A DNA stretch of 64,000 bases, taken from the NCBI GenBank assembly GCA_022708025.1, contig JAKIZM010000002.1:62001-126000 (forward strand), in the 5' to 3' direction. A program made the position numbers and the translations under genes. A model generated the notes under the pieces. The model was not told the origin of the DNA and searched no databases. It saw nothing but the letters and a program-made list of their open reading frames with translations. This document shows positions 1-12,740 of the stretch, piece after piece. Source of the DNA: Bacteroidota bacterium (lineage in GTDB: Bacteria; Bacteroidota; Ignavibacteria; Ignavibacteriales; Ignavibacteriaceae). Positions within the stretch are counted from its first letter, which is position 1. Every line of letters starts with the position of its first letter.

Positions 1-246
1 AAAAACACCTTCTCTTGCTCTGTCTTCGGGCGATAAATCCAAAAGATTTTTTCCGTTATATAAAATTTCTCCTTTAGTAACTTCAAATTCTTCTCTGCCT
101 GCTAATACAGATGCAAGAGTTGATTTGCCGGATCCATTCGGACCCATTATTGCGTGAATCTCTCCGGTATTAACTTTTAAGTTTATTCCTTTTAAAATTT
201 CATTTCCTTCGATTCTGGCGTGAAGATTTTTTATTTCTAACAACAT
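1..246 (-). CDS. sufC: SufC Fe-S assembly ATPase, 5' part only
   Basis: This is the N-terminal 82 codons of the ABC-type ATPase of the SUF iron-sulfur cluster scaffold (SufBCD); the rest lies beyond the left edge. The protein begins [18 protein letters not shown] and carries a Walker A motif (GPNGSGKST) near residues 36-44, followed by the SufC-like segment ending in [13 protein letters not shown]. Its start is 121 bases downstream of the sufB stop on the same strand, so the two are probably co-transcribed. The start is the ATG at 246-244. The family assignment rests on the Walker A context and on the adjacent sufB. Confidence 0.9.
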
Positions 247-367
247 TATAGTTTATCCTTTAATTTTTCTTTCGGGTAATTTTGTGCTTTAGAGATTTAG
301 TGACGGATAAAATTTTTAGCACAAAGCTCTAAAACCCACAAACAATTTATTAATTCAAATACTTATT

Positions 368-1816
368 TTATCCTACACTTCCTTCAAGTGATATACTTAG
401 AAGTTTCTGCGCCTCAACAGCAAACTCCATAGGAAGTTCTTTAAATACTTCTTTACAATATCCATTTACTATTAAACTGATTGCATCTTCAGTAGAAATA
501 CCTCTTTGGTTAAGATAAAATATCTGATCCTCACCAATCTTTGAGGTTGTTGCTTCGTGTTCTACCTGTGCAGTTGGATTTTTAATTTCCAGATACGGAA
601 AAGTATGTGCGCCGCATTTATCACCAAGTAAAAGAGAATCACACTGCGAAAAGTTTCTTGAGTTCTCAGCTTTTTTTGTAATCCTAACTAATCCTCGATA
701 ACTATTTTGACTTCTGCCTCCGGAAATACCTTTTGATACAATCGTGCTTTTGGTATTCTTTCCAATATGAATCATCTTTGTTCCGGTATCAGCTTGCTGC
801 ATATTATTTGTAACAGCAACTGAATAAAATTCACCAATAGAATTATCACCCTGCAATATGCAGCTTGGATATTTCCAGGTAATTGCTGAGCCTGTTTCAA
901 CCTGTGTCCAGCTAATTTTAGAATTAACACCGCGGCAGGCACCTCGTTTTGTAACAAAATTATAAATGCCGCCTTTACCATCTTTATCACCGGGATACCA
1001 GTTCTGAACGGTTGAATATTTGATCGTTGCATTATCAAGTGCAACCAGCTCAACAACTGCGGCGTGTAGTTGATTTTCATCTCTCATTGGTGCGGTGCAG
1101 CCTTCCAGATAACTTACATAAGCTCCTTCATCTGCAATAATTAATGTTCTTTCAAACTGTCCGGTATTAGCTGCATTAATTCTGAAGTAGGTTGATAACT
1201 CCATTGGGCATCTTACACCTTTTGGAACATAAGCAAATGAACCGTCGCTGAATACTGCGGAGTTTAAAGCAGCATAATAATTATCAGTTATTGGAACTAC
1301 ACTATTTAAATATTTTTGTATCAGATCAGGATGCTCTCTGATTGCTTCTGACATTGAGCAGAAAATAATTCCTAATTCATTAAGTTTTTCTTTAAATGTT
1401 GTAGCAACAGAAACAGAATCAAACACAGCATCCACTGCAACTCCGGCTAATGCTTTTTGTTCTTCTAATGATATTCCTAATTTTTTATAAGTATCAAGTA
1501 ATTCGGGATCAACTTCATCAAGACTGTTATATTTTGGCTGATTTTTGGGAGCCGAATAATAAGAGATATCCTGATAATCAACTGGCGGAAAAGTTACATT
1601 TGACCATTTTGGTTCTTCCATCGTAAGCCAGTGCCGATATGCTTTTAATCTTCTCTCAGTCATCCATTCAGGTTCACCTTTTTTTGCAGAAAGCTGACGG
1701 ATTGTGTCTTCGTTTAAGCCTTTTGGCAGACTGTCGGTTTCAATATCTGTTACAAAGCCAAATTTATACTCTTTATTTGCTAATTCTTCAATTTTTTGAG
1801 TTTCTGTGGTGCTCAT
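368..1816 (-). CDS. sufB: SufB Fe-S cluster scaffold subunit
   Basis: A 482-residue SufB, normal length for the family. It forms the cytosolic SufBC2D complex on which Fe-S clusters are built. The C-terminal core contains the [11 protein letters not shown] segment; its cysteine, C401, is the likely counterpart of the conserved cysteine involved in cluster assembly. The SKIGED stretch (Glu about 429) follows, then the conserved QRGIS region. The ATG at 1816 is preceded by GGAGA about 6 bases upstream, which supports this start. sufC lies immediately downstream on the same strand. No anomaly was seen. Confidence 0.96.
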
Positions 1817-2035
1817 TTATTCTCCATTAGTGCAAAATATTTAATAATTGCAGAGTAAACCTATTTAATCTGTACAAAAAAGTCAAGATTGATATTTCCA
1901 GTGTGATAATGAATAAAGATCGCAAAATAATTTTCTTCAGTCAGAAGTAATGGAAAAAAAATTTTTACAAAACCACTTTATAAAATTTGTAAAATTGAAA
2001 TAGTAAACTAAGAGGTCTCTTTTTTGTGAACTTTG
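1817..2035. other. gap between sufB and the tRNA repeats
   Basis: AT-rich non-coding sequence. Apart from the candidate sufB promoter, no gene, clear terminator or RNA structure was recognised here. Confidence 0.5.
1856..1886 (-). promoter_or_regulatory. candidate sufB promoter
   Basis: Read on the minus strand, a TTGAC box is followed 20 bases later by TAGGTTTAC. This resembles the Bacteroidota -33 (TTG) and -7 (TAnnTTTG) elements, with the last G replaced by A. It lies about 40 bases upstream of the sufB ATG. This is a pattern match only. Confidence 0.35.
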
Positions 2036-2298
<263 letters not shown>

Positions 2299-2400
2299 AA
2301 ATCAATGAGTATAAAAGATGAATAATGTATAATTCTTATTACAAATGTAAATAATTTTAACGTTTTAATAAATAAAATGAAATGTAAGCTAAAAATTTAA

Positions 2401-5091
2401 TTAAGTTGAAATCTTCAAATCTTTTAGCTCTTTTACCGGCTGGTAAACTACTCCTTCAAATTCCTCAAAATGTTTTTTACCGCATTTAATCTTATAATTT
2501 TCATGAGAATATCTTTGTTTTGGATCGAGTGAGTATTTAGTCTCTGCAACAAAATAAATTTTCTTGTCGTACTTAAAAATCAACGCCCAATCAGGATTGT
2601 AGGTACCAATCGGTGTGTTTATTACAAACCAGTTTGGAAGCTTTATATAAAACTCAACCCTTTCATTTGTTTCACACTGCTCAGCAAATTTCTTTTCCAC
2701 TTCTGAATCAAAGGGTATATAATTATAAAGTGTTTTATCTTCATTCTTAACTTTGTATAAATAATCTTTATAGCCATCCAGTTCTTTTTCTGCAAACAAT
2801 TCCATTGAGTAATATTGAGTTTCACCTATCTTTTCGTACTTAATTCCTTCAACCATCAATTCATTTAATACGTCTTTTATTTGTTTTACAGTCATATCGA
2901 GAAATAGTTGAGGATTCTTTAATACATCATTTATTCTTTCTGATTCGCAAAGTATTTTTATTATAGTTGATCTTGTCAAATCAGTTCGGCTTTGTATATA
3001 ACCTGCTATATCAGGTATTTCAGTTCTGTAATCTTCAATTTTATGAACACCGAAATTTATCTGGTATCCTTCTACTCCTTCTCGAACAAGATTAACACCC
3101 GTTTTCATTGTCCGAATCAAAGGTTGAGTTACTTCGGGCATTCCCTTTATTGCTTTTGCTGCAGCTCTAATTAACTCGTTAGTTGAATAATCAACTTTGT
3201 ATTTTGTTTTATGTTTTATTTTATCCCATAATTCAAGAAATCTTGGATCAGCTTCAAATGCTTTTCTTAATTTAACCGGGACTCTTTTTCTCTTATCTCT
3301 AATTCTACCTGTAAACTCAACTCCGCAATCTTCTTCAATTTCTTGCTGCAGCTTGTTTGCAAATTCTTCATAGCTTTCGTTTGCAATAACTGTTAAACGG
3401 TTTATATTTTTATCTAAAACACGATATCCATTTTCATTTACACAAAGCCTTAGACCTCTGCCAATTTCCTGGCGTTTTTTCATTTCAGAAGTTGTTTCAT
3501 TCAAAGTACATATCTGAAAAACATTTGTATTGTCCCAGCCTTCTCTTAATGCTGAGTGACTGAAAATAAACCGAAGAGGTTCTTCAGGATTTAATAATCT
3601 TTCTTTATCTCTCATTATTAATTGATAAGTACTATCATCATCTTTTGATTCACCTGTCTTTGAATCTTTAAAATTACCTTTGTTGTCCTGAGCGAAATAT
3701 CCATTATGGACTTTTTCTTTATCATAATTTATAACGTCAGAGAATTTTGTTTTTAGCTTCTCAAATGATTCCTCAAACCACAATGCAAATTTTCCTTTAG
3801 CTGGATTACCGTTTTCATCATAACTTCTGTAATTCGCAACCCTGTCTATAAAGAAAAGTGAAAGCACTTTTATTCTTTTTTCCTTTAGCTGTTTTTCCTT
3901 AATGAAATGTTCTTCGACGGCTTTCTGTATCTGAACTTTCATTATCTCGTCTTTGAAATCACCGGTTGTTTCACCTATATGAATTATTTTTCCATTCGAT
4001 AACTCTATGAACTTTTCTTCAAAATTTGCAGCTATTACAAGCAAATCTTTGTATTGTTCTCTGTTACCTGATAATTTGTAAAGATCATAATTCCTGGCAT
4101 CAACTTTAACAGATTTTCTCTTTACTCCGCTATCAGAGTTAACATCAATTTTTACTTTGGCTGTAATTTTTGTCTTGGCAGAAGTGATATTTTCAAGTTG
4201 AATGAATGCATCATTAAAATCATTTTCTGAATAAACAGAATCAACTTCAATTTGTTTTACAAGCCCGAGATCGTAAGCTTTAACAGGATCAAGTTTGTAG
4301 ATTAGATTATAACGATATTTATGAGTAGCTGAATATCTTAAAACAAAAAGAGGATTAAGGTTTGCAATTCCTTTTTTACGGATGTCCGTTTCCATATTTT
4401 GTGGTTCGTCGAGAATTACTATAGGTTTTGTTGCCTGAATATATTCAATCGGTCTTTTCCCTTGTGTTGAATCCCGTTCCAGATTAATAATATTTGTATC
4501 CTTTGCAAATGAATCAATATTAATTATCATTATCTGGATAGCATTACTTGTAGCAAAATTTTTAAGCTGAGGCAGACGTCTGCTGTCATAAACGAAATAA
4601 TTTACAGGCACACGGTTATATAAATTTTGCAGATGTTCTTCCGTTATTTGCAAACTCTTTAGCACTCCTTCGCGGATCGCAATGCTTGGAACAACAATAA
4701 CAAATTTTGTAAAACCATACAGCTTGTTTAACTCATAAATTGTCCGAAGGTAAACGTAGGTTTTTCCTGTTCCTGTTTCCATCTCAACTGTAAAGTTAGG
4801 GAAAGTAGTTTCAACAAATTGTTCTTCACCGTTAATTTCTCTGTAAGAAAATTTTTCTAATTTGTCTGAGTATGATAACTCATTTTCCAATTGAACTTGT
4901 TGAAGATTTTTAAGAAGATCGGTTTTTGTAATTGAGATTCTGTTACCAAAACCGAGTTCAGTAAGATCCAAAGTTCCATTTCCTGACAGTTCAAATTCAC
5001 CTTTACTAAGCGGTTGTCCTTCAAAAAGTCTTGTTACAGAACTTATTGCATCTAGCTGGTATTGCTGTTTGGAGTTAAAATGTAGTTTCAT
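2401..5091 (-). CDS. res: type III restriction enzyme, Res helicase-nuclease subunit
   Basis: An 896-residue Res subunit of a type III restriction-modification system. With Mod it translocates or diffuses on DNA and cleaves near unmethylated sites. The SF2 helicase has Walker A METGTGKT at about residues 104-111 and a DEPQ box at about 228-231. A motif VI-like region (ETTSEMKKRQEIGRGLRL) lies in mid-protein. A C-terminal PD-(D/E)xK-type nuclease is visible as PDWALIF...FVAETK. The ATG at 5091 (MKLHFNSKQQ) is preferred over an in-frame TTG at 5094 and begins four bases after the darG stop. It is the last gene of the operon. A broken second copy of its 5' end lies at 6761-6817. Confidence 0.93.
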   Translation of the reverse strand: MKLHFNSKQQYQLDAISSVTRLFEGQPLSKGEFELSGNGTLDLTELGFGNRISITKTDLLKNLQQVQLENELSYSDKLEKFSYREINGEEQFVETTFPNFTVEMETGTGKTYVYLRTIYELNKLYGFTKFVIVVPSIAIREGVLKSLQITEEHLQNLYNRVPVNYFVYDSRRLPQLKNFATSNAIQIMIINIDSFAKDTNIINLERDSTQGKRPIEYIQATKPIVILDEPQNMETDIRKKGIANLNPLFVLRYSATHKYRYNLIYKLDPVKAYDLGLVKQIEVDSVYSENDFNDAFIQLENITSAKTKITAKVKIDVNSDSGVKRKSVKVDARNYDLYKLSGNREQYKDLLVIAANFEEKFIELSNGKIIHIGETTGDFKDEIMKVQIQKAVEEHFIKEKQLKEKRIKVLSLFFIDRVANYRSYDENGNPAKGKFALWFEESFEKLKTKFSDVINYDKEKVHNGYFAQDNKGNFKDSKTGESKDDDSTYQLIMRDKERLLNPEEPLRFIFSHSALREGWDNTNVFQICTLNETTSEMKKRQEIGRGLRLCVNENGYRVLDKNINRLTVIANESYEEFANKLQQEIEEDCGVEFTGRIRDKRKRVPVKLRKAFEADPRFLELWDKIKHKTKYKVDYSTNELIRAAAKAIKGMPEVTQPLIRTMKTGVNLVREGVEGYQINFGVHKIEDYRTEIPDIAGYIQSRTDLTRSTIIKILCESERINDVLKNPQLFLDMTVKQIKDVLNELMVEGIKYEKIGETQYYSMELFAEKELDGYKDYLYKVKNEDKTLYNYIPFDSEVEKKFAEQCETNERVEFYIKLPNWFVINTPIGTYNPDWALIFKYDKKIYFVAETKYSLDPKQRYSHENYKIKCGKKHFEEFEGVVYQPVKELKDLKIST

Positions 5092-5095
5092 CAAA

Positions 5096-6136
5096 CTAAT
5101 TGTAGTTGAAATATTGAGTTAGTCTCTCTCTTGCTACATCAATGTGATATGTTTTGAACATTTTCTTTTTGCGGTCAGTCCAGTTCTTAATTTCTGAAAG
5201 CGCGTCTTCGGCTGCGAGGATTGATTTTTTCTGTAGGAATATATAATCTATAGTACCTAATAATTCGAGTCCAAACGGTGTTTCAAAATCCCTTATTAAA
5301 GCTAAAACACTGTTTACTCTTTCTTTCTGTTCATCAGTCAGATTCTTTTCAAAGTAATCTTCAACCTCACTGATTTTTGAAGAATTAATTCTAAGTGGTA
5401 TTGACGGTTTTGAATCATCCAATGATTTATAAAAAATATAATCATTTCGTAATGCTTTTAACACAGGTTTCAGATTATATGCAAAGGGTCCGTAAAATCC
5501 CTTTTCAAATCTAAGTTGTAATGGTTCCCCAAGTCTTTGTAAAAAATATGTAATCTTTTGTACAACAAGAAAGTTGATTTCATAGCCCATTACAAGGTAT
5601 TTATTCATTATATACAACATCATGGCGCGGGCAGGTGTTAAGTGCGAACTGGTTTTAACTGTTGAAGGTTTTTCTTCGAACTGTTCTGATGGTTCAATTA
5701 TAATTATTTCCATATTTTCTTTGAACTCATCCATAACTTCTACAATCATTTGTTTAACACAGTGCCAGTCTAGTTTGCCGCTGCCGCTTCCAAGAGGAGG
5801 AATAGCAATTGAAGCAACTTTATGTTCTCTTAACCATTCGGCTAATGATTTCAAACCCGCTTCAATCCACTTATACTGTGATGGAAAGCGCCAATGATTT
5901 TTTGTCGGGAAGTTAATAATATACTTAGGGAAAAATTCGTTTGTCTCAGTAACAAATATTTTTCCTATATCGATATTTCCTTCTTCACAAGCTCTTTTAT
6001 AAAGCTTATAATTTTCAGGAAAGGTTTCTTTAAATGCCAGAGCAACTCCTTTACCCATTATTCCTTTTAAGTTTACGGAATTTACAAGAGCTTCTGCTTT
6101 TACACTTAAAATATTTTTCTTTTCAAAAGTGATCAT
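5096..6136 (-). CDS. darG: DarG-type macrodomain antitoxin
   Basis: A 346-residue DarG, the partner of DarT. The family removes ADP-ribose from DNA thymidines and also binds and neutralises the toxin. The N-terminal macrodomain (about 1-150) shows AEALVNSVN, GIMGKGVALAF and PPLGSGSGKLDW. K79 in FPTKNHWR is the probable counterpart of the catalytic lysine described for DarG. The C-terminal part (about 165-346) has the stretch YFLQRLGEPLQLRFEKG followed by FYGPFAYNL, as in DarG toxin-binding domains. The start abuts the darT stop with no gap, and res follows after four bases, so translation is probably coupled. Confidence 0.9.
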   Translation of the reverse strand: MITFEKKNILSVKAEALVNSVNLKGIMGKGVALAFKETFPENYKLYKRACEEGNIDIGKIFVTETNEFFPKYIINFPTKNHWRFPSQYKWIEAGLKSLAEWLREHKVASIAIPPLGSGSGKLDWHCVKQMIVEVMDEFKENMEIIIIEPSEQFEEKPSTVKTSSHLTPARAMMLYIMNKYLVMGYEINFLVVQKITYFLQRLGEPLQLRFEKGFYGPFAYNLKPVLKALRNDYIFYKSLDDSKPSIPLRINSSKISEVEDYFEKNLTDEQKERVNSVLALIRDFETPFGLELLGTIDYIFLQKKSILAAEDALSEIKNWTDRKKKMFKTYHIDVARERLTQYFNYN

Positions 6137-6754
6137 TTAATAGTACCAGGAATTTTCAATAGTTACCGGAATATTAAGATTATTTCTATGAAGTATATCC
6201 TTAATATAATCATTCGATTCTTGATTGTAAACTGCAATGCCGGTTACTGCTGCAAAAGGCATCTCATTGAACACAAGACATTCAGCTTCCTTTCTTCTTT
6301 TACGGTCTGGATCTGATTCTGTGTTATTCCAGGTTCTTGCATTTATTGTTTTCCAGTCAAGTTGGTTAAGGTATTGTACATCATTAAAGAATTGAGTATA
6401 GGCTGCAAATGAATGACCGTCAGTAAAAATAAAATGACAGTTCAGTTCTACTAATTTTTCTATTGAGCTTATTAAATAAATTATTTCACTCTGAAGTCTC
6501 TTCTCGACATCATAACCATTTTTAATGCAATACAGCATGGGAGAACGTACACCAAAATAAAATGAAATATAATCTCTCATCACTCCAAAAGGCGATATAA
6601 TTATTTGTTTTGATCCTCTTTGTCTTATTAATTCTGTTTCCCCGATGGAAATATAGTCTGGATTAGCACCAAGGTTTGGTGCGGATAGTTTATTTTCTTT
6701 AATTAATATCTGAAGGTTATCACGGTGTATAATTCTATAAATATAAACGGGCAT
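6137..6754 (-). CDS. darT: DarT-type DNA ADP-ribosyltransferase toxin
   Basis: A 205-residue DarT, which transfers ADP-ribose from NAD+ onto thymidine in single-stranded DNA; darTG modules act as toxin-antitoxin and anti-phage systems. Visible family features are the N-terminal YRIIHRDNLQ segment, arginines around 44-46, YISFYFGVRSPMLY, and the KEAECLV stretch whose Glu (E158, or E156) is the presumed catalytic residue. The C-terminus is IPVTIENSWYY. Length and order (toxin first, DarG directly after) fit the family. The key residues appear intact, so it should be active. The upstream gap is filled by a res remnant. Confidence 0.9.
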   Translation of the reverse strand: MPVYIYRIIHRDNLQILIKENKLSAPNLGANPDYISIGETELIRQRGSKQIIISPFGVMRDYISFYFGVRSPMLYCIKNGYDVEKRLQSEIIYLISSIEKLVELNCHFIFTDGHSFAAYTQFFNDVQYLNQLDWKTINARTWNNTESDPDRKRRKEAECLVFNEMPFAAVTGIAVYNQESNDYIKDILHRNNLNIPVTIENSWYY

Positions 6755-6760
6755 AACATT

Positions 6761-6817
6761 ATTTGTTCTTCATATCACTTATCTGGTTTGCTGTCTTGAG
6801 TCAAAGTGGAGTTTCAT
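6761..6817 (-). pseudogene. broken 5' end of a second res gene
   Basis: The ATG at 6817 overlaps the stop of the AlbA_2 gene (ATGA) and reads MKLHFDSRQQTR before a stop. Eight of its first ten residues match the intact Res start (MKLHFNSKQQ at 5091), with different codons. The DNA match continues past the stop if one base and then nine bases are deleted relative to res (ACCAG, then ATAAGT). A later TGAAGAACAA resembles TGAAGGACAA in res. It fills nearly the whole space between the AlbA_2 gene and darT. The most likely reading is the remnant of an older res that was once translationally coupled to the AlbA_2 gene. Confidence 0.65.
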
Positions 6818-7974
6818 ATTGTAGGTCTTTTAAGCACAAGACGAAACTGATTATTATCAATCTCATTCAAAAAATCAATGTTGGAATATTTAGAGATAGC
6901 ACGAATTACTCCCGTTCCCATACCACGATAAGGTAATAAATTATTCTTAGTTATAAATGAAGTTAAGATTGGATTACGAATATTTGAAATACCGCTTTTA
7001 ATATTCTCTACAGTTAAATTATTAGGTAAAATACCTGGGCTATTTATTTCAACTCTATTGTCAAATATAAACAGGCGGATTGGTGCACTGATAAAGTAAT
7101 CTCTATGCATTAATGCATTAGCAACCAACTCTTCAAAAACTTCCTCTGGTATCTCTAAAACACCTTGGATATTAAACGATTCTGACTTTTGAACTTTTCT
7201 TAAGTTTCGCTTAATAAATGACATTGCTAATGCGAATTGATTTTGGACTCTGCCAGAAATATCCTCACTATCACGATATTTTGTTCCAGCAATATCATTC
7301 CCATAGTAAGAAACAGCTTTGATAATAAATTGAGGTTTAAATTTTTGAGGATTTTTTGCAAACACAAGTAAGCCTGCTAAGTTCAATTCTTGATCTTTAG
7401 CAATACCTATATTTTCTAAAAACTGAATTAAAGGTATTTCTAACTTTTCAATTTCTTGTGAATATACTGCCTTACAAAATTCTTTGAATAAATTTAGATC
7501 GAGTTCATCTATTGTTGCTGAACGCACTGGGACTTCATCAGCGTGGAAAATATCAGAACTTTGAAATAATCTTCTTAATTCTTCTTTTGATGTAACCTTT
7601 CTTTTATCAGAACCACTTTTTACCCAGACAGCGCCATCATTATCTAAATATGGCTTGTCTAATCCTTCCTCAATTTTAACAACGATTATCTTATTGTTAC
7701 CAATTTGTAAATTCTCGGTTATCGGATTTATTGGATTTTTTATATTGTTCGTTGCTGTATTAGAAATAAGTAAATTGATTCTTCTAATATCATCATCTGA
7801 CAAGCCGATAATATTATTGTTTTTGTCAACACCAATTAGGATAAAACCGCCATTAGTGTTTGCGAATGCAACCATCTCGCTTGCTAAAGATGTTGCATTT
7901 GTAACATCAACTTTAAATTGATGCTTGCTATCTTCACCTCTGGAAATAATTTCTAAAATTTCAAATTCATTCAT
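6814..7974 (-). CDS. AlbA_2 (Schlafen-type) and GHKL ATPase-like protein
   Basis: A 386-residue protein with an N-terminal AlbA_2/Schlafen-like domain (about 1-120; SKHQFKVDV, ASEMVAFANTNGG, YLDNDGAVWVKSG). The C-terminal region is of the HATPase_c_4 kind (EELVANALMHRDY, FIFDNRVEINSPG, RGMGTGVIRAI). Such proteins are often annotated as RecG-like or as putative DNA-binding regulators and are common beside restriction systems; their exact role is unsettled. The ATG at 7974 is chosen over one at 7995 because GGAGAG lies just upstream and the upstream gene stops at 7976. A remnant of res overlaps its stop codon. Confidence 0.82.
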   Translation of the reverse strand: MNEFEILEIISRGEDSKHQFKVDVTNATSLASEMVAFANTNGGFILIGVDKNNNIIGLSDDDIRRINLLISNTATNNIKNPINPITENLQIGNNKIIVVKIEEGLDKPYLDNDGAVWVKSGSDKRKVTSKEELRRLFQSSDIFHADEVPVRSATIDELDLNLFKEFCKAVYSQEIEKLEIPLIQFLENIGIAKDQELNLAGLLVFAKNPQKFKPQFIIKAVSYYGNDIAGTKYRDSEDISGRVQNQFALAMSFIKRNLRKVQKSESFNIQGVLEIPEEVFEELVANALMHRDYFISAPIRLFIFDNRVEINSPGILPNNLTVENIKSGISNIRNPILTSFITKNNLLPYRGMGTGVIRAISKYSNIDFLNEIDNNQFRLVLKRPTI

Positions 7975-7975
7975 T

Positions 7976-10615
7976 TTAATCTCTCCAAATTTCATAAATC
8001 ATATTTCTTTTATTAAAAGCTTCTTCGCCACCTTCCATAATATTTACTATCTCTTTTTGAATTAGTTTGCAATCGATACTACCCGAAGATGTTTCTAATT
8101 TATCGTTTGAATATTTACAACTAATTGTTTGTTCGCAATCACCTAATACTGGAATATTAGGATTATGTGTTGCAAAAATAAATTGTGTTTTCCCTTTTAA
8201 CCGGTTTATTTCTCTAATTACATCACTATAAATAGTTTGATTATCCAAATCATCTTCTGGTTGATCAATAATGACAACATCATTATCCTCCTTAGTTAGA
8301 ATAAATAGTATTAGAGCCGAGGCTCTTTGTCCCAATGATAGTCTATTTAGTTCGATTCCTTTATACAATAAAGTATATCTATCGGGTGTACGGAAAGTCA
8401 ATAAAGTTTCTTGTAATTCGATAAATCTGTTTCTAAAATTAGTTAGCTGCTCACCACCTCCTAGAAAATTTGATAGATCACTGTTGTTATTAAAAAGATC
8501 TTTGAATATTTGTAGTGTATCTGAATATGTATCTATGATCTTTTTAATATTCGTTTTCTGAATTCTGGTACCCTTTAAATTATCTTCTAAAAACCTGAAA
8601 TAACTTTCTTTATCCTGCTTATATTCAATACTTATTTTAACCGCAAGCCCTTTATTATTTAATTCATTCGTAGCTTCAACAAGATTAATAAACTCCACAT
8701 GATAAAGCTTTTCTAAATTATTTAAAGACTCTACAAGTTTTTTCTCAAGTAGAGTAAATTTATCTGCACGTTTACTTAATTCATCTAATTTAACATTTAA
8801 CACATTTAAACGAGAATGCAATTTCACAAAATCATCAGGATTGATTTGAGCAATATTTATAGATCTTTTAATCAGAGCAAATTCATCCTTCAGTCTGGAG
8901 TAAATATCCTGAAATTCACTCTTATAATTATCTAACTGCTTTATATTTAATTTAATCTTTGTAAGTACATTAAGGATGTTTATAATTGACTGACTTACAT
9001 CTGCTCCTACTATATTTATCTTATCAAATATCTGCTTGTTTTCCTCACTATTATATTTCAATAACTTAACAAAGTTATCATTATAATCTTTCAATTGTGA
9101 ATCAAGATCAGAAGTCATGGTTTTCAAAAAAGATGAAATTTGGTTTATTATACTTTCATCTTTTTCAAAGTTCAATTGTTTTTTAAGTTTATCTTGGATA
9201 TTGTATTCAGAGTATTTTTTTAATCGTTCTTCAACACCAGTTTTTTCTTCTATAATTTCATTCTTCTTGTCTAAGTCTTTTCTTAAGTCTTTAATTTCTC
9301 GTACTATTTTTATTATTTCTTGTTTCTGAATATTTATCTTTTCGCGTACATCTGTGACTTTGTGGCCAAAGAATTTATTAATTAAATCTGCTCCAAACCC
9401 TTCTTCTCCAATTTCACTCAAATCTTTTTGACCAAAGTAAAGAATGTTCAAGAGATTTTCATTTATTTTTAAATATGGAATTAATGTATCGTCACGATAA
9501 ACATTCGGCTTCTCATTATAGACACGCTGTACTTTATAGAATTTATCGTGTTTATCTCTTATAACTATTTCAAGCATACCACCACTGCGCATAAGATTGT
9601 AAACTATGTCGCTTTTGTAATCTGTATCTTTAGCTTTCGCACCAAAAGATATATCTAAACCGTAACGTATGGTCTCAAGTATTGTTGATTTACCACTCCC
9701 GCGAATACCAATTAGATTGTTCATATTATTGTTAAAATAGAGCACCTCATTATTGAGTAATCCTCCGGTAAATGAGATTGATTGTATATAACCATTTTTA
9801 ATTGGTAAAATACTTTCATTGATACGTTTTGATGTAGGTAAGAGCGCATATTTAACCGCATCAAAATTGAAATCACCCAGTTTAATATAAGTTACTTTTT
9901 CCAAGTTACCTTGAATATGTTTTTTACCAACTTCATCTAAACTCTTACAATCTGAACCCTCTACAAATGAAGGAAGTTTGTTGTTAAGCCAAGTGTTAAG
10001 TTTCTTTATATAATCTCCTGTTCGAACCTTCTGAAAACCCAAAACAAAATTTCTGAATAATTCATTACTCTCAAGTTCCATCATTCTGCTACCACCCAAT
10101 TCCTTAACAAAACCTTTAGGGTCCTCAATATGTGCCATTATTACAAATGAATCTCTACCATCGTTCTTATGTTCATCTAACTTTTTAAGAAGTTCAATTA
10201 AACTGTACTTACACATTGAATTCTCGTTTTCAAAATTAGAAATCCCTTCAAAAGCTGAAATTAAAAAAGCATTTATATAATTTGTTCCATCTTTATACCA
10301 TTTTTCATAATTAAATACTATCAAACAATGTAGCCCATTTTGTCCTTCTTTAACGGATAATTCAACACCAGGTAATAAAAATATTTCTTCTTTCTTTCCT
10401 TTAGAATATAAGTCTTTAAACTCATCAAGATTAAATTTATTGTGATTTGTAATTACCCCCACACCTATTTTATTATCTTTTAAACGTTGAATATACTTTT
10501 GAGTAAACTCGTTAGGATTACCATCATATTTAAATTCATTGTCTGACTTAGTATGCAAATGAAAATCTGCACGTAACCATGTGCTTCCATTTTTGAATAC
10601 TTCGTAATTATTCAT
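7976..10615 (-). CDS. PHP-domain plus SMC-like ATPase (TrlF type)
   Basis: An 879-residue protein joining an N-terminal PHP phosphoesterase to an SMC/RecN-like ATPase. The PHP part shows DFHLHT (about 17-22), ITNHNKF (55-61) and GVELS (83-87), plausible metal ligands. Walker A is GIRGSGKST (303-311). A long coiled-coil region follows (about 410-700, rich in E/K/L/I). The signature-like LSLGQRASA, Walker B VVIIDQPEDDLDN and FATHNPNI close the ATPase. This architecture matches proteins named TrlF. It lies 11 bases after mod and one base before the next start. It is a plausible nuclease or sensor in the defence operon; its substrate is unknown. Confidence 0.85.
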   Translation of the reverse strand: MNNYEVFKNGSTWLRADFHLHTKSDNEFKYDGNPNEFTQKYIQRLKDNKIGVGVITNHNKFNLDEFKDLYSKGKKEEIFLLPGVELSVKEGQNGLHCLIVFNYEKWYKDGTNYINAFLISAFEGISNFENENSMCKYSLIELLKKLDEHKNDGRDSFVIMAHIEDPKGFVKELGGSRMMELESNELFRNFVLGFQKVRTGDYIKKLNTWLNNKLPSFVEGSDCKSLDEVGKKHIQGNLEKVTYIKLGDFNFDAVKYALLPTSKRINESILPIKNGYIQSISFTGGLLNNEVLYFNNNMNNLIGIRGSGKSTILETIRYGLDISFGAKAKDTDYKSDIVYNLMRSGGMLEIVIRDKHDKFYKVQRVYNEKPNVYRDDTLIPYLKINENLLNILYFGQKDLSEIGEEGFGADLINKFFGHKVTDVREKINIQKQEIIKIVREIKDLRKDLDKKNEIIEEKTGVEERLKKYSEYNIQDKLKKQLNFEKDESIINQISSFLKTMTSDLDSQLKDYNDNFVKLLKYNSEENKQIFDKINIVGADVSQSIINILNVLTKIKLNIKQLDNYKSEFQDIYSRLKDEFALIKRSINIAQINPDDFVKLHSRLNVLNVKLDELSKRADKFTLLEKKLVESLNNLEKLYHVEFINLVEATNELNNKGLAVKISIEYKQDKESYFRFLEDNLKGTRIQKTNIKKIIDTYSDTLQIFKDLFNNNSDLSNFLGGGEQLTNFRNRFIELQETLLTFRTPDRYTLLYKGIELNRLSLGQRASALILFILTKEDNDVVIIDQPEDDLDNQTIYSDVIREINRLKGKTQFIFATHNPNIPVLGDCEQTISCKYSNDKLETSSGSIDCKLIQKEIVNIMEGGEEAFNKRNMIYEIWRD

Positions 10616-10626
10616 ATTTAACTCAT

Positions 10627-12648
10627 TTAAATTGTTATTAATTCCACTCCTGCATCCTTCATCTGCAGGGCGGTGTTTGTTTTTAACTGATCATTTCCTG
10701 CAAATAAATTATCCAGAATAATGCAGGTCTGCGGATTTACTTTTAATATTGCATCAATTATTGTCTGATCAATTCTACTAAGTACAACAGCAAGCTTATC
10801 TGCAACTAAATAAAAACCTTCTTTTTGTTCTCCCATAGGGACAAGAATCTTATCCGATAGTGTGTAGCCTGATTTTAATATTAACTCATACAACATATTT
10901 ATTTCCTGTGCTTCAGGTTTTAGCTGGGTGTCAAAGAGGTTAACCATTTTATTCAGGTCATCTTCAGATTCGATAATATCGCTGCGCCAGTGTTTGAAAT
11001 TTGATGAAGATAATTTAAATACTTTGAAACCCTGTGTGTAACCAGCCTGTCCATTTTCTAAAGATTTTTTCAACTTCTCATCAATCTCATTATCATCATT
11101 TAACTCAAGTTCAGTTTGATGATTTTCTTCCGTGCCACCCTCTCCTTTGGAGAGGGACGGGGTGAGGCTTTTTATTACTCTGCGGATTCTTTCTTTACAA
11201 ATATCCGCTATTGTTTTATATCCAGCTTTAAAAGCTTCACTATCTTCTGCTGTTTTTTCCGGAAGCTGAACAAGAATGAATTTTCTGTTTCCTCCATCTT
11301 CTTTATTTAACTCTAATACTGCCTGTGCTGTTGTACCTGAACCGGCGAAGAAGTCAAAAACTAAGTCTTCTTTTTCACAAACTACATCTATCAAAAACTT
11401 TATCAATTGATATGGTTTAGGAAAGTCCATTATTTTTTTGCCTAATAATTTGATTATTTCATCGGTACCAGTTTTTGTGTTTCCAACTTCTTCCGGCAAG
11501 ACAGTTTTCGGATGAATTGTTCCTCTTTCTTTTTCATACCATAGAATTCCCTGTGAATTAAAATAAAATTTCAAAACCTTTTGTCCTTTTGAATCGTAAG
11601 TCTCTTCACCATTTAACCATGATATAATCTGGTTTCTCATTGCCCACCCAGCACCAATTGTTACTGGTTCTTTTAGCTTTCCATTTTCAAAAATCATCTT
11701 ACCAGACTTTATAAATTCCTTTTCTGATCCACCTAATTCTATTTCAAACTCAGCATTTTCTCCTTCAAACTCCATCCCAGCAGGAAATGTTATGTCACTT
11801 TCAGGATTATCTTTGGAAATTTTTTTTAACGCACCGTGTCTTATGCTTCCACCGTTACTATCACTAAAATATTTTAAGCCATCTTTTGATTTAGCAAATG
11901 AAAGTATGTATTCGTGGGATCCGGTGAAATGACCCGCTTGAGAACCACTCCTTAAATTCCAAACAAGTTGTGCCAAGAAATTCTCCTCCCCAAAAATTTC
12001 ATTCATAATCATTCTTAAGTTATGCACTTCATTATCATCAATTGAAACAAAGATAACACCGTCATCTCTCAATAAATTTCTTGCAATATAAAGACGAGGA
12101 TACATCATCGAGAGCCAGTTGCTGTGATAGTGTCCGCTTTCTTTGCTGTTCTTTCTGAAAAATCCTTCTTTCAACAAATAACCATCTTCACTTTTCTCTC
12201 CAATGCGCTTAAGGTATTCTTCTTTGCTTTCAGAAAATTTATCCGGATAAATAAAGCTGTCGTTTCCTGTGTTATAAGGAGGGTCAATGTATATCATCTT
12301 TATTTTACCAAAGTAGGATTTCTGCAGGACTTTAAGGACTTCGAGATTTTCGCCTTCGATAAAAATATTAGCCCCCTCTTTATCTCCCCCAAAGGGGGAG
12401 AAATTCTCAGGATAAGATTCTTCAGGAACAGGTTTTAATGTTGCAGAGGTTCTTTGCTGCAACACTCTGAACACATCAGATTTACCAGCCCAGTTCAGGT
12501 TGTAACGTTCATTCTCAAAATTGATATCTTCACCAAGAGAAGCTTTAAGCTTTTCCCAGTCAATTTTTTCATCAGTAAAAGCTTCAGGAATAATTCCTTT
12601 AAGCTTATTCAGTTTATCAGAAAGAATGTCGAGTGATTTGCCATCCAT
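10627..12648 (-). CDS. mod: type III DNA methyltransferase, Mod subunit
   Basis: A 673-residue Mod of the beta class: the catalytic DPPY motif (122-125, in MIYIDPPYNTGND) precedes the SAM-binding FAGSGTT motif (about 430-440). Mod recognises the target site, methylates adenine and also directs Res. It is the first gene of the operon; the start is the ATG at 12648. Two unrelated GC-rich palindromes lie inside the frame. One encodes the segment around residues 82-94 (NFSPFGGDKEGAN). The other encodes about 504-516 (LTPSLSKGEGGTE), between the catalytic core and the C-terminal part. The frame stays open through both. Confidence 0.94.
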   Translation of the reverse strand: MDGKSLDILSDKLNKLKGIIPEAFTDEKIDWEKLKASLGEDINFENERYNLNWAGKSDVFRVLQQRTSATLKPVPEESYPENFSPFGGDKEGANIFIEGENLEVLKVLQKSYFGKIKMIYIDPPYNTGNDSFIYPDKFSESKEEYLKRIGEKSEDGYLLKEGFFRKNSKESGHYHSNWLSMMYPRLYIARNLLRDDGVIFVSIDDNEVHNLRMIMNEIFGEENFLAQLVWNLRSGSQAGHFTGSHEYILSFAKSKDGLKYFSDSNGGSIRHGALKKISKDNPESDITFPAGMEFEGENAEFEIELGGSEKEFIKSGKMIFENGKLKEPVTIGAGWAMRNQIISWLNGEETYDSKGQKVLKFYFNSQGILWYEKERGTIHPKTVLPEEVGNTKTGTDEIIKLLGKKIMDFPKPYQLIKFLIDVVCEKEDLVFDFFAGSGTTAQAVLELNKEDGGNRKFILVQLPEKTAEDSEAFKAGYKTIADICKERIRRVIKSLTPSLSKGEGGTEENHQTELELNDDNEIDEKLKKSLENGQAGYTQGFKVFKLSSSNFKHWRSDIIESEDDLNKMVNLFDTQLKPEAQEINMLYELILKSGYTLSDKILVPMGEQKEGFYLVADKLAVVLSRIDQTIIDAILKVNPQTCIILDNLFAGNDQLKTNTALQMKDAGVELITI
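11135..11169. repeat. GC-rich palindromic mini-element inside mod (3' part)
   Basis: The core is an 8-bp perfect stem (CCCTCTCC/GGAGAGGG, 11138-11156) with a 3-base TTT loop, followed by a GC-rich tail (ACGGGGTGAGGC). It is sharply richer in GC than the flanks and encodes the low-complexity LTPSLSKGEGG stretch. It looks like an in-frame insertion of a dispersed palindrome. Confidence 0.7.
12371..12403. repeat. GC-rich palindromic mini-element inside mod (5' part)
   Basis: TCTCCCCC-AAA-GGGGGAGA forms an 8-bp perfect stem at 12383-12401, preceded by GCCCCCTCTTTA. It encodes the SPFGGDKEGA stretch just upstream of the DPPY motif. It has a different sequence from the second palindrome in the gene but the same layout: an 8-bp stem with a three-base homopolymer loop. 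Confidence 0.65.
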
Positions 12649-12740
12649 CTAAGAATTAAAACATTTGTTAAAGAAACACTGTATAAATTAACAAAGAGAG
12701 CTGAAATATGTTACTAAAAACCGGATTTTAATTTTGAAAA

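Follow-up and report, generated by a model that had tools for sequence, protein, structure and literature searches.

BoxC-type triplex palindromes within a methyltransferase gene of an Ignavibacteriaceae bacterium and the association of such palindromes with DUF559 nucleases

Introduction

How does a GC-rich palindrome come to be read in frame inside an AT-rich methyltransferase gene, and is any other genetic element tied to it? The question is raised by mod, a type III modification methyltransferase gene in a 64,000-nucleotide stretch of DNA (hereafter the window) from a Bacteroidota bacterium of the family Ignavibacteriaceae (assembly GCA_022708025.1, contig JAKIZM010000002.1, positions 62,001 to 126,000), in which a first-pass annotation had noticed such an element. 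We find two triplex-type palindromes in this gene, here called elements 1 and 2. The finding is real and, as such, adds a further member of a known repeat class, BoxC, in an unusual location; moreover, the partnership of such palindromes with genes for DUF559 nucleases is well supported. Our preferred reading, which we hold to be probable rather than secure, is that both elements are solo BoxC-type palindromes and that palindromes of this type are the ends of a mobile, in-frame DUF559 nuclease unit.

BoxC repeats, also named PIT or TM_ECO, are intrastrand-triplex repeats known since the 1990s, with 23 copies in Escherichia coli K-12, all intergenic, and 3610 BoxC-type copies across 262 proteobacterial genomes (PMC4666352, Holder et al. 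2015). According to the available parts of that article, oligonucleotides of the family form triplexes in vitro by circular dichroism (CD) and nuclear magnetic resonance (NMR), dimethyl sulfate (DMS) showed no protection of the repeats in vivo, and the 2015 survey saw no association with mobile elements; neither "endonuclease" nor "DUF559" occurs in the article.

A triplex palindrome read in frame within mod

The features concerned are the following.

10627..12648, minus strand: mod, type III modification methyltransferase, 673 aa (Pfam N6_N4_Mtase; PADLOC MTase_III)
11138..11167, plus strand: element 1, triplex palindrome CCCTCTCC-TTT-GGAGAGGG-ACG-GGGTGAGG (direct reading, triplex-motif scan, hairpin fold); arms 11138-11145 and 11149-11156, third strand 11160-11167
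12372..12401, minus strand: element 2, CTCCCCC-TTT-GGGGGAG-ATAAA-GAGGGGG (triplex-motif scan), in frame in mod

Element 1 is 30 bp long, follows the plan Y8-TTT-R8-ACG-mirror-R8 and lies in frame in mod. Its first two blocks form a perfect 8-bp hairpin and the third mirrors the purine arm with one A->T change; judged by its base order, the element is built like a class II intrastrand purine triplex, and it may adopt such a structure inside the cell. Folding, which covered the duplex hairpin of elements 1 and 2 alone, gave -7.6 kcal/mol for the DNA hairpin of element 1 (z -2.8; one of 200 shuffles was equally good). The G+C content is 0.67 compared with 0.35 for the mod gene, and stop codons occur in only one of the six frames. 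The first-pass annotation had placed the palindrome at 11135-11169, and it indeed lies a few bases inside that interval; the reading frame does stay open and gives LTPSLSKGEGG on the minus strand, at residues 495-505 of mod instead of about 504-516. Both the hairpin and the "GC-rich tail" described earlier are present, the tail being the mirror copy of the purine arm, i.e. the third strand, which had been missed together with element 2; neither a source nor a mechanism had been put forward there.

The purine core GGAGAGGGNNGGGGTGAGG (at most 3 mismatches) occurs once in the window and not at all in shuffled sequence. A scanner for a pyrimidine arm, a purine arm and a mirror third strand reported three motifs in the window, while ten dinucleotide shuffles of it contained none in nine cases and one in the tenth. 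The third motif (10817-10844) is weak and is not claimed here; window shuffles yield up to one such motif. Element 2 is read within SPFGGDKEGA (mod residues from 84), in the orientation opposite to element 1. Its hairpin is unremarkable (z -1.5, 12 of 200 shuffles equally good), and its pattern has one copy in the own genome and matches in 23 of 59 related genomes at up to 2 mismatches, with matches to the pattern read backwards in 7. As a repeat, element 2 is thus weaker and less secure than element 1.

Position in the linkers of Mod

Both characteristic Mod motifs, DPPY (residue 122) and FFAGSG (433), are intact, and the protein has relatives of solved structure in EcoP15I Mod (4zcf, 6k0w). 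Of 294 genomes of the class searched for Mod, 24 have relatives of it, the own genome being one of them; the alignment comprised 24 homologous loci, i.e. 23 other genomes and one own paralogue, each represented by its single best open reading frame (ORF), with L070-L074 being second pieces of the same genes. Both elements fall in linkers of this alignment, element 1 between the catalytic core and the C-terminal part, as the first-pass annotation had proposed. The linker before NIFIEGENLEVLK, the site of element 2, measures 20 aa in the window compared with 12 aa in 13 of the 17 other measurable homologues. At the site of element 1, the linker from ERIRR of the catalytic core to GFKVF is 49 aa long in the window, and in 13 other homologues it spans 23-27 aa (six), 41-56 aa (six) or 219 aa (one). 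Only one other in-frame homologue, L062, carries a related palindrome in the same linker. We call element 1 an insert because it is a dispersed repeat without counterpart in the homologues except L062 and L052.

Several homologues hold other palindromes in the two linkers, namely a CCCCTCC/GGAGGGG triplex motif in L048, CTGAGCGAAGTCGAAG and CCGCAGAGACGCAGAG...TTTGCGTCTCAGAG in L047, TGTCATGCTGA...TCAGAATGACA in L055 and L063, and GGTAGCCGCA...TGCGGCTACC in L057; both linkers are therefore tolerant sites.

A member of the BoxC family

Like BoxC/PIT/TM_ECO repeats, element 1 has a pyrimidine arm, a purine arm, a mirror purine third strand and a second loop of 3, and its purine core GGAGAGGG-N3-GGGTGAGG matches several K-12 copies. 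It differs from the TM_ECO consensus CCCTCNCCCN3-6GGGNGAGGGN3GGGNGAGGG (9-nt stems) in having stems of 8 nt and is therefore a shorter relative, not a strict TM_ECO. It also lies in frame inside a gene, unlike the K-12 copies, all of which are described as intergenic.

The exact 30-mer has a single place in the own genome, with one further copy at 3 mismatches (backward control 0), whereas the core with a looser second loop has 12 matches and none when read backwards. Single-copy status, named earlier as a sign against a repeat, thus holds for the exact sequence and fails for the family. With 2 mismatches and a fixed loop, pattern and backward control both gave 5 matches, which is explained by the element being a near mirror repeat, so that this control is not independent at such looseness. 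Seven of the 12 own copies are in frame with a surrounding ORF, these ORFs ranging from 228 to 1390 aa. Further, the core was found with at most one mismatch in 23 of the 59 relatives and exactly in 75 of 294 genomes of a class-wide sample, without any control match in either set. Among 28 loci of other relatives, 15 copies sit within ORFs of 120 aa or more; their phases vary, both orientations occur, and one of them (L016) has no hairpin. The idea of a dispersed palindrome that is tolerated within coding regions is borne out by these many sister copies in frame inside genes. Its supposed restriction to this part of the tree is not, as the family is that of E. coli (PMC4666352, as far as the available parts go) and the exact 30-mer also occurs in nine stretches of an 84,980-species collection, all with Bacteroidota names. 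Two of these stretches (L078, L080) have the exact 30-mer at an identical position in an amidohydrolase gene that they share (Pfam Amidohydro_1), in opposite orientations and both times in frame; as judged from the two genes, these are two separate insertions into one tolerant loop. The gene resembles that of a dihydroorotase.

An ordinary low-complexity linker or a chance palindrome would fit the variable length and sequence of the linker among homologues and, for element 2 only, the unremarkable hairpin energy and the positive backward control of its loose pattern. For element 1, this explanation is already refuted by the shuffle and backward controls, and an exact 30-mer common to Bacteroidota contigs and an exact core in 75 of 294 class genomes also speak against it; overall we regard it as having practically no chance of being correct.

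Palindrome pairs also occur without a gene between them: contigs C34, C52, C61 and C69 of G145 carry inverted pairs at a constant distance of ~60 bp, resembling gene-less miniature units with both ends.

Association with DUF559 nucleases

DUF559 (PF04480), also known as YcjD, is a family of PD-(D/E)XK nucleases related to Vsr (PMC1189080, available in part) with a relative of solved structure (3hrl). We searched for it in the relatives because the own metH copy of the palindrome adjoins a DUF559 domain and a Mod homologue contains DUF559 in the linker of interest. The domain is absent from the mod gene of the window and from its 3-kb stretch (L005), which makes element 1 a solo copy. The search gave 115 matches in 42 of the 59 genomes, 52 of which were examined in two samples. 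The first consisted of 30 loci with 32 domains, one locus per genome, ranked by Pfam score and blind to palindromes; the second took the next 20 places of the table that had no locus yet, with 1 kb on each side, skipping one G002 place that lies inside L256. Domain positions of the first sample came from a hidden Markov model (HMM) built here, with 2 of 34 hits dropped as short or duplicate.

In the first sample, 28 of 30 loci contained a triplex motif, with 64 motifs in 91.1 kb (0.70/kb) as opposed to 0.011/kb in shuffles of the same loci, 0.084/kb at Y1_Tnp loci (3 in 35.6 kb, 1 of 12 loci) and 0.105/kb at Mod loci (10 in 94.9 kb, 5 of 25 loci). Motif positions peak in the 100 bp before the DUF559 domain and just behind it. 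A motif lay within 250 bp of 29 of the 32 domains (left 27, right 21, both sides 19), and 15 of the 19 two-sided pairs were inverted, in 11 of which the third strands lie on the outside. Among 1480 random 310-bp intervals of control loci, 69 had a motif on either side and 13 on both. GIY-YIG genes, which are present in all 59 genomes, served as another nuclease family: here only 1 of 30 loci had a triplex motif within 250 bp (Fisher p 3e-13 against 29/32), and 3 of 30 loci had one at all (0.033/kb). The result does not depend on shared insertion sites, as 16 of the 18 loci left after removal of 12 metH and hsdR loci still had a motif within 250 bp, nor on scanner settings, five of which gave 26-28 positive DUF559 loci out of 30. 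The second sample repeated the pattern with a motif within 250 bp in 18 of 20 cases (left 13, right 15, both sides 10, of which 8 inverted) and 43 motifs in 46.4 kb (0.93/kb). Likewise, in the own genome three of four DUF559 copies were examined (metH, C4 and C57; not C114), and all three have palindromes on both sides, those of C57 at distances of 180 and 386 bp.

Counts across the 59 genomes, taken from the search tables, agree with this. BoxC-variant counts correlate with DUF559 counts (rho 0.55, p 5e-6; partial 0.49 given Y1_Tnp and genome size), and DUF559 is present in 22 of the 23 genomes with the variant, with neither found in 16 of 59 (Fisher p 9e-4), p values that are optimistic because the genomes are related. 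For Y1_Tnp the correlation was 0.29 and the partial value 0.05.

These controls bear on an alternative in which the repeats are independent and spread by another agent, either RAYT/Y1 transposases, as for repetitive extragenic palindromic (REP) sequences, or replication slippage, with DUF559 as a passenger that was captured or retained by recombination. In its favour, the majority of palindromes are solo, Y1 transposases are widespread, with 53 of 59 relatives having them, a palindrome lies ~1 kb from one own Y1_Tnp locus, and triplex motifs have been tied to instability in E. coli (PMC4666352, in its available parts). The scarcity of motifs at Y1_Tnp and GIY-YIG loci compared with DUF559 loci and the near-zero partial correlation speak against it, and it leaves both the choice of one nuclease family and the two-sided flanking unexplained. 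We therefore consider this alternative unlikely, if still a serious one. REP/RAYT as the specific source is not supported, given palindromes at 1 of 12 Y1_Tnp loci only and that partial correlation. CGTC, a tag in the palindromes of Di Nocera et al., stands beside the hairpin on the minus strand of the window copy; as this loop varies among copies, it is probably not a fixed tag here.

Some DUF559 loci have a more elaborate arrangement. L361, L368 and others of L351-L370 carry an inverted palindrome pair on each side of DUF559, the two palindromes ~50-110 bp apart and both sides nearly alike. Such paired palindromes resemble the REPINs found beside RAYT genes. In L256 (G002), two DUF559 units stand in tandem beside triplex palindromes, with 512 of 570 positions identical.

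The flanks of GIY-YIG genes (L321-L350) were enriched for a different palindrome, TGAGC(G/T)..GTCGAA, with 15 copies within 300 bp compared with 3 elsewhere, in 6 of 30 loci. This motif, which was picked from the same GIY-YIG loci, occurs in none of 30 DUF559 loci and twice in Mod loci, and it could form a second nuclease-palindrome pair. Five GIY-YIG matches with identical scores stand in tandem in each of two places (G024:C1:120132-122135, 450 bp spacing; G006:C1:2945594-2947066, 315 bp), arrays that look as if flanking repeats recombine.

Whole units in frame within metH, hsdR and mod

Pfam matches revealed whole palindrome-DUF559-palindrome units in frame inside metH, hsdR and mod. MetH was matched in 57 of the 59 relatives: 10 matches run through an in-frame DUF559 insert, 43 are in two parts with the insert missing between them, and 4 cover one half only. 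The 30 metH loci that were read comprise 10 whole units, 17 empty linkers and 3 scar-like alleles, in which the palindromes are degenerate and the nuclease is missing; two of these come from the own genus (G002, G004) and one from the order (G052). In hsdR of G004, G022 and G038, the unit is found just before the ATP-binding motif. In mod of G204, a whole unit occupies the same linker as element 1, and G152 mod contains a broken unit, the left palindrome of which shares its starting position with element 1. The same stretch in Mod proteins of distant hosts had been named earlier as evidence against an insertion; related palindromes do recur in the same linker of these two Mod genes of the class, there as the end of a DUF559 unit.

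A tree of DUF559 domains from 27 of 30 loci (three with the domain off its expected place were dropped) groups the metH nucleases in one clade (support 100/98) and the hsdR nucleases in another (98/94), which fits, as expected, a putative single nuclease lineage per site.

One of the hsdR genes, L247 of G022, contains two in-frame nuclease domains within its plus-strand ORF (175-3315), a GIY-YIG domain at residues 251-317 and DUF559 at 443-547.

Such units bear on a second alternative, namely that DUF559 is a host repair or resolving nuclease kept near triplex repeats to handle their structures, with neither moving the other. DUF559 may indeed act as a host repair gene, as a methyltransferase mutant of Caulobacter requires the DUF559 protein VsrA for a DNA-damage response (PMC12907096, available in part), and the relation of YcjD to Vsr points the same way. 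Whole units inside metH, hsdR and mod, single-site nuclease lineages, the patchy whole, scar-like and empty metH alleles and the tandem unit of G002 look like mobile DNA instead, and a repair gene would not be required to lie within 250 bp of the repeats. We judge a pure repair role improbable.

Palindromes beside DUF559 in named organisms

DUF559 was also found in 42 records of a plasmid collection and 3 phage records, from which we took 16 (15 plasmid-collection, 1 phage) chosen for their spread of organisms: Escherichia, Neisseria, Klebsiella, Pseudomonas, seven alphaproteobacteria, three cyanobacteria, Deinococcus and one phage record. They hold 21 motifs in the 20.8 kb from -400 to +900 of the DUF559 match compared with 8 in 175.6 kb elsewhere, a ~22-fold density, and 11 of the 16 have at least one motif beside DUF559.

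The DUF559 gene of E. coli is ycjD, located between sapF and fabI, and in K-12 a canonical TM_ECO, CCCTCGCCCCTCTGGGGAGAGGGTTAGGGTGAGGGG, comes after it; sequence and place lead us to equate this copy with number 9 of the published table. A sapF-ycjD-fabI query was covered to at least 80% at one place in 3359 of 5426 genomes; three genomes below this cover that were opened have efflux genes at the sapF-fabI place, as described in the available part of PMC12817139. As ycjD is present in K-12 beside one of the 23 copies, the origin of the repeats is testable in a laboratory strain.

In Klebsiella pneumoniae (L314) and Pseudomonas aeruginosa (L315), a partial DUF559 match with no annotated gene stands between core genes; two triplex motifs adjoin it in the former and none in the latter.

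A proposed mobile unit with palindromic ends

The location and family of the palindromes, their flanking of DUF559, the in-frame units and the three kinds of metH allele suggest how such a unit might behave. A unit of palindrome, DUF559 and palindrome would enter gene linkers such as those of metH, hsdR and mod with the frame unbroken; the host frame would survive, given how rarely stop codons occur in the palindromes and that translation runs on through the nuclease, which becomes an extra domain. The nuclease most likely nicks or cuts DNA at the hairpin or triplex ends or at the target, and host repair might then copy or insert the unit, so that the palindromes would be mobilised by DUF559. 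On loss of the nuclease, the palindromes would remain as an in-frame scar, and solo copies may also arise in trans. Since the copy in the window has no nuclease, we infer from two Mod relatives (G204, G152) that it is what remains of a unit end and not a solo insertion.

Several observations weigh against this reading. DUF559 was found in the fetched stretch of few palindrome loci (3 of 12 in the own genome, 2 of 28 in relatives, 3 of 17 in the class, 0 of 9 Bacteroidota and 2 of 120 viral-contig loci), and 20 of the 59 genomes have DUF559 and lack the palindrome variant. Two-sided pairs are not inverted in 4 of 19 cases in the first sample and 2 of 10 in the second. The mirror third strand, present on 55 of 60 exact purine/pyrimidine hairpins in DUF559 loci compared with 13 of 17 in control loci, is also frequent on the control hairpins (GIY-YIG 2/2, Y1_Tnp 3/3, Mod 8/12); it therefore marks the palindrome family and not the DUF559 link, which is marked by the number of palindromes. 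In mod of G204 the left palindrome begins 21 nt beyond the starting point in the window, and the presence of unrelated palindromes in the mod linkers implies that the shared site partly reflects tolerance. The loci examined showed neither a clean recent insertion nor a target duplication or an excision. Of the named records, 5 of 16 have no motif beside DUF559 and only 4 have motifs on both sides; at K-12 ycjD there is just one of the 23 palindromes (PMC4666352, in its available parts), on one side; and the Pfam control for DUF559 did not list E. coli, though K-12 ycjD is annotated as DUF559.

The proposed units share features with several known systems. Homing endonucleases and inteins place a nuclease in frame in conserved genes near conserved motifs, with one lineage per site and a patchy distribution of whole, scar and empty alleles. 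DUF559 units are alike in being in frame, near conserved motifs, of one lineage per site and patchy in their alleles; they differ by palindromic ends common to many sites and by a nuclease class other than LAGLIDADG or HNH, and Pfam reported no intein domain in the DUF559 units scanned. REP/RAYT systems likewise consist of short dispersed palindromes, some in genes and some with a dedicated enzyme gene, and form inverted pairs (PMC3733652, available in part), whereas the partner here is a PD-(D/E)XK nuclease and not the Y1 transposase of REP/RAYT and GTAG/CGTC-tagged palindromes, and the mirror third strand is a further difference. Rickettsia palindromic elements (RPE) are in-frame inserts in ORFs that are probably still functional (PMC3733652, Di Nocera et al. 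2013); in-frame palindromes within ORFs are common to both, a comparison made by description alone, and the available part of that article names no nuclease partner for RPE.

The available open-access literature without preprints held, among the matches listed, no publication that joins DUF559, YcjD or COG2852 with BoxC, triplex or palindromic repeats. Within that literature, the DUF559 link seems to be new, and so do the units read in frame within metH, hsdR and mod. BoxC/PIT repeats have so far been without a spreading agent, and a consistent nuclease partner suggests one. The link may also account for in-frame peptides of the LTPSLSKGEGG kind in predicted proteins, and it suggests a role for DUF559, which by its Pfam name is still a domain of unknown function. 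More tentatively, and with somewhat less than even confidence, small nucleases and short dispersed palindromes might form dedicated pairs (DUF559 with BoxC/PIT; a GIY-YIG family with TTCGAC...GCTCA) whose units home into linkers and are translated in place as an extra domain, with the E. coli BoxC repeats and the in-frame peptides as solo ends. If true, this would be a class of mobile elements with non-B DNA ends, a non-transposase enzyme and harmless insertion, since the whole element is readable as protein.

Genomic surroundings of mod

An Rfam search of 10600-12700 gave a single sub-threshold U3 match that we judged to be due to chance. T9SS sorting domains among the Pfam matches point to a Bacteroidota-like group for the own species. 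According to Pfam and PADLOC matches, mod closes a defence island (window 2401-12648) with the following other members.

2401-5094: type III Res (restriction subunit)
5096-6136: DarG
6137-6754: DarT
6814-7995: Schlafen AlbA_2 protein
7976-10615: one protein that matches an AAA ATPase and, in PADLOC, Ppl, directly before mod

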